The notes below the pieces were generated by a model that was not told the DNA's origin, ran no database searches, and saw nothing but the letters and a program-made list of their open reading frames with translations. This document shows, one piece after another, positions 24,890 to 26,679 of a DNA stretch of 46,097 nt (position 1 is the first letter of the stretch; each line of letters starts with the position of its first letter). The stretch is taken from positions 1 through 46,097 of the forward strand of contig NZ_JADEWT010000046.1 of the NCBI RefSeq assembly GCF_015207505.1, written 5' to 3'. The position numbers and the translations under genes are program-made. Source of the DNA: Tychonema sp. LEGE 06208. Lineage in GTDB: Bacteria > Cyanobacteriota > Cyanobacteriia > Cyanobacteriales > Microcoleaceae.

Positions 24890-25831
24890 TTAAGCGTCGT
24901 CGTCTTGCGGCCCAAAAACCATTTGTACAACCATCGTTGGTTCGCCTCGCTTGTGATAGCGATCGGCCCAATTGCGAATAATTTCATCTAATTCTTCAAC
25001 AGCTCGATCCAGCCGTTCCGGTGGGATATCCAAAGTCTCCATAACTCGCATCACCTTCGGTTGCTTTTCCGCCCAATCTTTCATCAGCCGGAAATATCTA
25101 GCCGTATCCTCCACCATCGTAAACGTGCGCTCTTCCTGCTCTGCAGGAGAGTAGGTAGCGCGGGTGAGAGCATAAAACGGCATTCCCCAAGGAGAATCTA
25201 TGCGAGTAACTGTTCCCGAATAGATCAAGCGGCGCTTGATGTGTTCTGCTAGAGCTTCGCTCAAAGGCATTCGCCTTTCTGGGTGCATATCTTCTTGCGA
25301 TCGCCTGTGCAGAAACTCGATCAACTCCATAAACTGAAAAGAATTGATCAGTTGAGCATCAGGCGGATTAGCCGGAACCTTTCCTTCGAGATATTTTTTT
25401 TCATCAGCATTCAAGCTGTTTCCCGGAATGCGAGGGCGACCAGGGAACCAAGGATACTGTTCCAGCCAGACATAGGGAAACTGAATCAAATATTTAGGTT
25501 CTTGGGAACCCAACATTTTCAGCAATTTTCCCTTAGTCAGAGCTTCCTGGACTTCTTCAATAATCACCTTTACCCGTTTAGGCTCAATGTGATGCAAGTG
25601 TCCGGTCATCCGCAGGTTCTGGCGCTGCTCCATATAAGTCATATAAATGGCACACTTAGCCGCCGTTGCGGCCGCGTCTAGAAACGCCCCGTGCCTGTGC
25701 CCGCTGGTTCTCATGGCGCTAAACGCCAGATATAGCATGATCTGATCCATTGCACTAGGGCTGAGGCTTTTGACCAGATCTAAAGAGTCATTTTTCATCA
25801 CAATCCCCGAAATAGCCAAACTAGGAGGCAT
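24890..25831 (-). CDS. hetR: HetR, master regulator of cell differentiation in filamentous cyanobacteria
   Basis: HetR is a DNA-binding dimer that activates differentiation genes and is inhibited by RGSGR peptides. The sequence is plainly Het[41 protein letters not shown] (with the Cys equivalent to C48 of Anabaena), [36 protein letters not shown], and in the flap/hood part [20 protein letters not shown]. Three starts are possible. GTG at 25846 lacks an SD. ATG at 25831 has GGAGG eight bases upstream and is listed. ATG at 25798 gives 302 residues, closest to the 299 of Anabaena HetR, but has a weaker SD. The upstream gene on the same strand, 26414-26641, encodes a PatX-like RGSGR peptide. Confidence 0.97.
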
Positions 25832-26413
25832 CTTGCGATCCTCCACTAAATTATTGCGAGATCGCCGAATCTAGCATAGCCGACTGTCGCCGGAAAGCTT
25901 GGCAGCTATCCTAATATTCAGGCCTATTAATTTCCCTGAGTTCTCTGGGGCATTGGCTTAAATGCGACCGACACCGAATAAGTGGTTCTTATTGGCGAAT
26001 TTAAGTAGATTGCTCCACCCTCTGCACTCAGGGTTTACCTATATTTAAGTTAGTTATCGCACGTTAATTATAGTACAGCCGTTGAAAAATTAAACCGCAC
26101 CTGCTGGCGGAGAACGTAAATAAGTATTGCGAGCGGAGGAATTTGAAGTGGCTCCGACAACGGGCGAGGGTCTGATGGGGCAGAGGAAAGCGTTTTCAAA
26201 ACAAAACCGCCAAATACTAGAATCTATCTCTAGCTAGATGGCGGTTGCAGATTTATATGCTAACATCGATCGCACACAAAGAATCTCCTAAAAAGTGTCA
26301 ACAAAAAGTGCAGTTACCGTTTAACCTGAAAAATTAGAATTTCAGAAAATCAGATCGATCGAACCAACGGCCCGAACCAACTCAGTTGTGGCACTCGCTG
26401 AGATACCTTAATA
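25832..26413 (-). promoter_or_regulatory. hetR upstream region, 580 bp, with possible NtcA-type site
   Basis: There is no gene between patX and hetR. On the hetR strand GTA-N8-AAC (26063-26076), a one-base variant of the NtcA consensus GTA-N8-TAC, lies about 230 bp upstream of hetR; no well-spaced -10 box follows it, so the call is weak. hetR is under NtcA-dependent control in Anabaena, which is why the site is noted. The length of the region suggests a long leader or several promoters. Confidence 0.25.
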
Positions 26414-26641
26414 TTAGAAATCTTGTAGCGCATGAGTCACATTAGGCTCGATAAAGCTTCTGCGTCCGCTGCCTCTCTCTGGGCCGCGCTCGCCCTTTTG
26501 TTGAGTTTGCGCTGACAACATATAATATTGGGCGGTAGCAGTTTCGAGCATTGGGGCTGGAGATTCAAAAGCTCGAGCGGCGCTGGCACTCAAGGTAATG
26601 CCCAACAGGCTCAGTAAAGCAATTGCAGTGTAGGTTTGCAT
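26414..26641 (-). CDS. patX: PatX-like pre-peptide with signal sequence and RGSGR motif
   Basis: 75 residues. Residues 1-24 (MQTYTAIALLSLLGITLSAS then AARA) are a classical signal peptide with an Ala-x-Ala site. The mature part ends with QQKGERGPERGSGRRSFIEP and a short tail. The pentapeptide RGSGR (56-60), within ERGSGR, is exactly the sequence by which PatS and HetN inhibit HetR. PatX proteins, exported RGSGR-type peptides encoded just upstream of hetR, are known to accompany hetR across filamentous cyanobacteria, and the position here (same strand, hetR next) fits. About 15 residues follow the motif, so processing on both sides would be needed to free a pentapeptide. ATG start without a clear SD; an inverted repeat lies just upstream (26650-26679). 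Confidence 0.88.
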   Translation of the reverse strand: MQTYTAIALLSLLGITLSASAARAFESPAPMLETATAQYYMLSAQTQQKGERGPERGSGRRSFIEPNVTHALQDF

Positions 26642-26649
26642 GGGTAGTA

Positions 26650-26679
26650 TCCGTGTCAGTGTCTATTACCTGATACGGA
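26650..26679. promoter_or_regulatory. inverted repeat in the patX leader
   Basis: TCCGTGTCAG (26650-26659) and CTGATACGGA (26670-26679) pair at 9 of 10 positions with a 10-base spacer, 9-38 bp upstream of the patX ATG. It could be an operator overlapping the promoter or a hairpin in the 5' leader that limits ribosome access. The gap to the next gene is only 94 bp, so the patX promoter must lie here or within the 3' end of the oxidoreductase gene. Confidence 0.4.

Follow-up and report, generated by a model that had tools for sequence, protein, structure and literature searches.

A hetR-linked PatX of known kind in the non-heterocystous filament Tychonema sp. LEGE 06208, and its duplicated copies in related genomes

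In Nostoc, export of PatX, its cleavage by PatP and nanomolar binding have been shown (PMC12756182). PatX has already been described together with hetR in filamentous cyanobacteria, both with and without heterocysts (PMC7761841, PMC11298460, PMC12756182), and the role of HetR and PatX in filaments that never make heterocysts has been called a mystery (PMC11298460). In Anabaena, the DIF1 box TCCGGA drives both patX and patS (PMC7377430). The crystal structure of HetR with the hexapeptide PatS6 shows binding by R223, E253, D256, D270 and D278 (PMC4649674). The amino end of the peptide is gripped by E254 and D256, its carboxyl end lies near R223, and the substitution E254A in Anabaena HetR lowers the affinity for PatS6 (from 12 to 91 nM; PMC4649674). 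We have analysed a locus of this type in a 46,097-nucleotide stretch (the window) of Tychonema sp. LEGE 06208, in which a small gene, here called patX1, precedes hetR. This is a true PatX-HetR pair, of an already known kind, in a non-heterocystous filamentous cyanobacterium. The internal position of its peptide motif, the tripeptide RGP ahead of it and the tail behind it are ordinary; duplicate copies in related genomes, a second PatX and a substitution in HetR merit a second look.

The patX1 gene is a minus-strand open reading frame (ORF) in the window ORF listing (26414-26641) and encodes 75 amino acids. The protein begins MQTYTAIALLSLLGITLSASAARAF, ends RSFIEPNVTHALQDF and carries RGSGR as residues 56-60 (26462-26476) in the context GPERGSGR. 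An earlier examination of the letters alone (the sequence-only reading) had described the gene, the motif, a 15-residue tail and hetR as the next gene on the strand. All of this was confirmed, with hetR some 570-620 bp further on. Its proposal that the protein is PatX-like also holds: the NCBIfam PatX equivalog NF047413 gives 35.4 bits (cut-off 30), with residues 1-62 aligned to positions 1-68 of the 69 in the profile, and the gene order is shared with other families. A Pfam search of the protein gave no match. On the minus strand the order is a gene resembling an FAD-dependent oxidoreductase (26736-28619; named from its homologous position and used as a synteny marker), patX1 and hetR. Of the 29 genomes of the genus, 27 have a relative of the ORF at this conserved place. 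In the remaining two (G309 and G310) the contig ends 283 bases or less from hetR, on the flank expected to hold patX. The motif is intact in 12/12 single-copy relatives. Beyond the genus, 15 PatX regions were compared: a homologue of the oxidoreductase gene adjoins PatX in seven, hetR is present in the stretch in four, and all three occur together in three (L223, L225 and L242). By this synteny the gene is the already published PatX, not a new peptide. Within the order, at least 128 of 291 genomes contain PatX matches, at least 111 of them above the cut-off.

The hetR gene (24890-25798, minus strand) encodes 302 amino acids from a likely ATG start, although translation could also begin at a GTG at 25846. 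The protein scores 577.6 bits against NCBIfam NF009718 (cut-off 489) and is the sole HetR_C match above cut-off in the genome. Its closest counterpart among named genomes (a set from which the window's own genome was possibly left out) is that of Microcoleus sp. LEGE 07076, with 96% identity. HetR residues could be compared in 72 of 80 sequences (79 loci and the window). The DNA-contact residues (R62, H69, E71, K73, R74 and K76 in Anabaena) are identical in 72/72, as are R223, E253, D256, D270 and D278. The peptide pocket is thus kept except at one of six residues: at the Glu254 position (codon 255 here, 25034-25036, minus strand) the window has Thr. Threonine occurs in 25 of the 72 sequences, namely the window and L009-L032 (25/25 loci of the clade), and glutamate in the other 47. 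As all Thr254 loci belong to one clade, a single event is indicated. Immediately downstream of hetR (24657-24879) there are arrays of 7-base repeats (TGTTAAC and CAACTGC types).

The host was taken by the sequence-only reading for an Oscillatoriales-type organism, and it proves to be of the Microcoleus/Tychonema type, which is non-heterocystous. When strong NifH-class matches were considered, no nifH was found in the genome, which is rated 100% complete (220 bits with the nifH model, cut-off 394); ChlL/BchL alone gives a strong NifH-class match (483 bits, cut-off 345). The same reading had suggested that such a pair would throw new light on what HetR does outside heterocyst formation. Since pairs of this kind are already in print, presence alone gives no new clue.

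Omega values were calculated for each part of PatX1 with a codon model of our own, run on a FastTree tree whose branch lengths were scaled. Unless otherwise stated they refer to the 12 single-copy relatives; other groups were treated separately. These include genomes with two hetR-linked copies, of which A is the hetR-proximal and B the farther copy. The first 24 residues (26570-26641) would form a Sec-like signal peptide, with possible cuts after ASA21 or ARA24. The signal peptide named by the sequence-only reading is thus a candidate: hydropathy and AxA sites, the only features used, give a hydrophobic stretch at 6-17, AxA sites at 19 and 22 and an uncharged segment at 6-21, and omega is 0.345 (p 1.2e-4), but the n-region (MQTYT) lacks Lys and Arg. 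Residues 25-46 are also constrained (omega 0.54, p 0.013). A middle element, AQYYMLSAQTQQ (residues 37-48, 26498-26533), is kept even in copies without the motif, in which omega for residues 25-46 is 0.32. Residues 47-54 give 0.74 (p 0.36). The HetR-binding hexapeptide ERGSGR (residues 55-60, 26462-26479), identical to PatS6, has an omega of 0.002 (p 5.9e-6; p 1.2e-8 in B copies), and conservation is absolute, with no non-synonymous difference in the pairs compared.

The tail (residues 61-75, 26417-26461) evolves neutrally: omega is 0.93 (p 0.78) for single copies, 0.82 for B copies and 1.10 for motif-less copies, in no case significantly below 1, and residues 61-63 alone give 1.8-2.1. Three features singled out by the sequence-only reading consequently lose their distinctive character. 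In PatX proteins of other families, too, residues follow the motif (for example, HRGSGRRELMESFGNTHSVI in L088 and HRGSGRRGLDG in L223). The tail is absent from 5/15 full-length B copies, which stop at the motif. The upstream RGP is found in only 6/12 single-copy relatives, the others having RAP, RLP, RRP or RTP.

Upstream of patX1 a DIF1-like -35 box, TCCTGA (26694-26699, minus strand), is followed after 18 nucleotides by a -10-like TATCAG (26670-26675). The exact TCCGGA occurs nowhere in the window, and TCCTGA aligns with the DIF1 TCCGGA position of relatives. Using a pattern set after the alignment had been seen ([N]CC[GTC]GA-N16-20-TAT[CT]A or TATAA), matches were obtained upstream of 33 of 46 patX1 copies, all 26 patX2 (the second, unlinked PatX) that could be extracted from 30 loci, and 20 of 29 loci in the set L088-L116; the means for mononucleotide shuffles were 0.18, 0.10 and 0.06, respectively. 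The strict form TCC[GT]GA accounts for 29, 6 and 15 of these. The 13 patX1 genes without a match are, without exception, A copies. The longer patX leader is unique within the genome. Between patX1 and hetR, a hairpin with a T-rich run (26205-26246, minus strand; -21.6 kcal/mol, with 5 of 200 shuffles as stable) is a likely terminator. Of all 46 copies, 33 have a hairpin of this type 3' of patX, among them 12/12 single copies; a reversed-string control gave 6 of 46. A generic terminator and promoter scan did not list this hairpin and gave no sigma-70 promoter at the locus, and the gap between the genes contains no PatX remnant. Given the DIF1-like promoter and the intervening hairpin, patX1 looks like its own transcription unit.

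Two patX1-type matches were found in 15 of the 29 genomes of the genus, or 16 with Microcoleaceae cyanobacterium UBA9251 (L027). In one of these (G200) the copies sit on two contig ends, and in another (G299) the second copy is a remnant. RG[ST]GR is missing from the A copy in 12/16, where it is replaced by QSGSGR, KRRGER, QKGDGR, ERGSRR, KRNSPR, ERGGSR, SRDTQR, SRNTQR (twice) or TRRNKR, or where the copy is shortened (G250 and G299). Both copies are intact in the remaining four (G166, G001, G153 and G200). The B copy retains RGSGR in 16/16, and all 12 single-copy relatives have kept the motif. Six of the 16 B copies end exactly at the motif (the five tail-less full-length copies and the remnant). 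Four of the five read CGC TGA, with a readable tail persisting past the stop, and the tree points to at least two separate events, since G306B branches apart from the other B copies.

The A copies are ORFs of 72-75 codons; one of the motif-less copies is that of Microcoleus vaginatus HSN003 (L018 2905-3132). In a clade of six motif-less A sequences, omega is 0.25 for the signal peptide (p 2.9e-4) and 0.32 for the middle (p 0.002), against 2.1 for the motif (p 0.049) and 1.1 for the tail (p 0.76). With free branch lengths, residues 2-46 give 0.29 (p 1.1e-4) and residues 47-60 give 1.11 (p 0.73); for nine motif-less sequences, residues 47-60 give 1.97 (p 0.008). Diversifying selection on the lost motif was considered and is not claimed, because choosing motif-less copies biases omega upward. 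We also considered whether the duplicates had divided the protein, one retaining the motif and the other retaining the tail as a functional part in its own right, and rejected this, as the tail omega is close to 1 in all groups. Loss of export in motif-bearing B copies was likewise set aside: charged residues interrupt the hydrophobic stretch in 5/15 B copies (0/12 single and 0/16 A copies), but hydropathy does not differ significantly between B and motif-less A copies (p 0.24), so that this is a tendency only. Motif-less A copies do lie below single copies (p 0.005).

The remnant among the B copies is that of Tychonema bourrellyi FEM_GT703 (L020, 2536-2613). It comprises 25 codons, reading MQTYTPIALLTPQKGDLSPERGSGR and then TAA, and retains the leader and the start codon while the signal sequence and the middle have been lost in frame. 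A PatX-family search of this genome (G299, 92% complete) that allowed E values up to 1 gave no match, and no patX2 was found there. The remnant looks PatS-like and may be a pseudogene.

The window genome also contains an unlinked PatX, patX2, on contig C27 (L118 416-619, plus strand). It encodes 67 amino acids ending in PERGSGR and scores 57.4 bits. Relatives of patX2 occur in 27/29 genomes of the genus and in 31/61 of a family sample. RG[ST]GR is terminal in 25 of 30 loci (22/27 in the genus), and altered ends were found in G033, G260, G273, G288 and G307. A gene for a TldD-type metalloprotease is present in 21 of the 30 stretches and coaE in 26, several stretches being only about 3 kb long. 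In the window genome patX2 and tldD are convergent and 116 bp apart, with TldD models matching below their cut-offs. A small, exported-looking PatX-like ORF adjoins the unlinked PatX in several genomes (L123 4450-4659, L127 5526-5777, L134 4970-5179, L157 1898-2110 and L160 1611-1856); these ORFs have [PQ]GC[SG]RRD and cysteines at the RGSGR position.

In other genera the arrangement of motifs varies. A degenerate internal site is combined with a terminal HRGSGR in Arthrospira (L045), in Okeania (L038, L052 and others) and in Trichodesmium (L048). The hetR-linked PatX of the Planktothrix type has the internal site only (RGGGR in L203, L209 and L210, RGSGR in L208). A two-motif ancestor with loss of one or the other copy would explain these positions. 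The PatX of Lyngbya aestuarii (L043 3321-3569) combines an internal RGSGRR with a terminal HRGSGR. Three or four RGSGR repeats per PatX-like precursor, as in a multi-copy peptide precursor, occur in L109, L110, L112, L113 and Leptolyngbyaceae MO_188.B28 (L075 2207-2617). A genome scan with an RGSGR DNA pattern was discarded as useless, since it gave 40 matches against 106 in the control and the pattern misses AGA codons.

Taken together, the locus is probably a PatX-HetR module of a non-heterocystous filament in which an exported precursor is trimmed to the HetR-inhibiting ERGSGR. By analogy with Nostoc, whose steps we infer to occur here too, patX would be transcribed from its own DIF1-like promoter up to its own terminator, and its product would leave the cytoplasm by the Sec route. 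Extracytosolic cleavage by a peptidase (PatP in Nostoc), with additional trimming, would release the internal ERGSGR and also remove the neutral tail. The hexapeptide would then enter the cytoplasm, either of the producing cell or of its neighbours, bind the HetR hood cleft and take HetR off the DNA. In this organism HetR would control trichome fragmentation or necridia and not heterocysts. Several observations weigh against this account. The change from Glu254 to Thr could weaken peptide binding. The HetR (hetP) palindrome is not enriched in the genome (9 matches, 12 in the control), and its two best matches adjoin unrelated-looking ORFs. Finally, motif-less copies in relatives stay under selection, so that the module would do something besides inhibiting HetR.

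Among the alternatives, a chance ORF with a chance RGSGR is suggested by no more than the short length and the lack of a Pfam match. It is already refuted by synteny, conservation, omega and the NCBIfam PatX and HetR scores, which exceed their cut-offs, and we give it practically no weight. It is highly improbable that the tail itself is a peptide signal or a functional domain. An R-R-x-F start does recur: F63, preceded by a basic residue, is present in 11/12 motif-less copies and in 14/14 degenerate internal sites of other genera, where R61 is also kept. The omega values for the tail and for residues 61-63, and the stop directly after the motif in a third of full-length B copies (5/15), speak against such a function. 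Residue R60 is retained in 12/12 motif-less Microcoleus copies, while the 14 degenerate sites have R in five and I in nine; as evidence for a cleavage site after R60 this is no more than suggestive, and residues 61-63 are unconstrained by omega. As the carboxyl end of the peptide lies near R223 in the HetR-PatS6 structure, removal of the tail is expected. Removal would be unnecessary if the motif worked inside an uncut or partly cut protein, as has been suggested for HetN with its internal RGSGR (PMC7761841). We consider this unlikely, since a longer N-terminal extension should clash in the structure (PMC4649674) and PatX lacking its signal showed no HetR interaction in two-hybrid tests (PMC12756182).

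A stronger competitor to trimming to ERGSGR as the whole function of PatX is a second, HetR-independent function in the exported N-terminal half (the signal and ..AQYMLSAQTQQ..), from which the RGSGR end is separable and can be lost by duplicates. We place its probability somewhat short of even. It accommodates the 12/16 A copies that lack the motif yet remain ORFs of normal length, and the motif-less clade, which is constrained in signal peptide and middle and not in motif or tail. So read, the conserved half matches the HetR-independent effects of PatX reported in Leptolyngbya (PMC11298460). On the other hand, the genes are small and the changes few: three copies sharing one loss vary at five synonymous-only and three non-synonymous codons in residues 1-46. 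In part of the clade the loss may postdate the splits, some of the constraint may predate it, and where a genome has a single copy, no part of the protein is better conserved than the motif. It is possible, though we regard it as doubtful, that this clade took PatX apart by duplication, one copy keeping the HetR peptide and the other (12/16) a selected exported half, which would make PatX a protein of two functions in a lineage whose HetR has changed a contact residue.

If this were so, PatX would have an ancient, HetR-independent extracellular role, and a simple deletion in PatX could give rise to cytosolic peptides of the PatS type. The clade offers a set of natural experiments: motif copies without a tail, motif-less copies whose exported half is conserved, the PatS-like remnant and a HetR altered at one contact. 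These make it possible to ask whether PatX acts solely via HetR, whether the tail matters (the sequences say that it does not) and how PatS originated. Duplicates of PatX, motif-less PatX, a second PatX, the PatS-like remnant and HetR E254T were not found in the literature searched, which excluded Elhai and Khudyakov 2018, a source that may cover some of them.

The closest described system is PatX of Nostoc PCC 7120 (PMC12756182), a small exported protein which the window protein, with its Sec-like N-terminus, resembles in RG(S/T)GR near the C end, the upstream neighbour, hetR nearby and a putative DIF1-like promoter. The present genome differs in having ERGSGR (HRGTGR in Nostoc), the box TCCTGA, a second, unlinked PatX and Thr for Glu254 in HetR. 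Leptolyngbya BL0902 (PMC11298460) also has patX directly upstream of hetR and is also a non-heterocystous filament without nif genes. Co-transcription is predicted there, whereas a conserved intergenic hairpin is found here, and it has three hetR-like ORFs where the window genome has one HetR. PatS of Anabaena PCC 7120 shares the identical hexapeptide ERGSGR. PatS, however, is very short and signal-less, has the motif at its very end and is believed to undergo cytoplasmic processing (PMC12756182), whereas PatX1 has 75 amino acids, a signal-like N-terminus and a 15-residue tail. HetN also carries RGSGR away from its C end, but it is a putative ketoacyl reductase (PMC4649674), while PatX1 is a protein of 75 amino acids without a Pfam domain.
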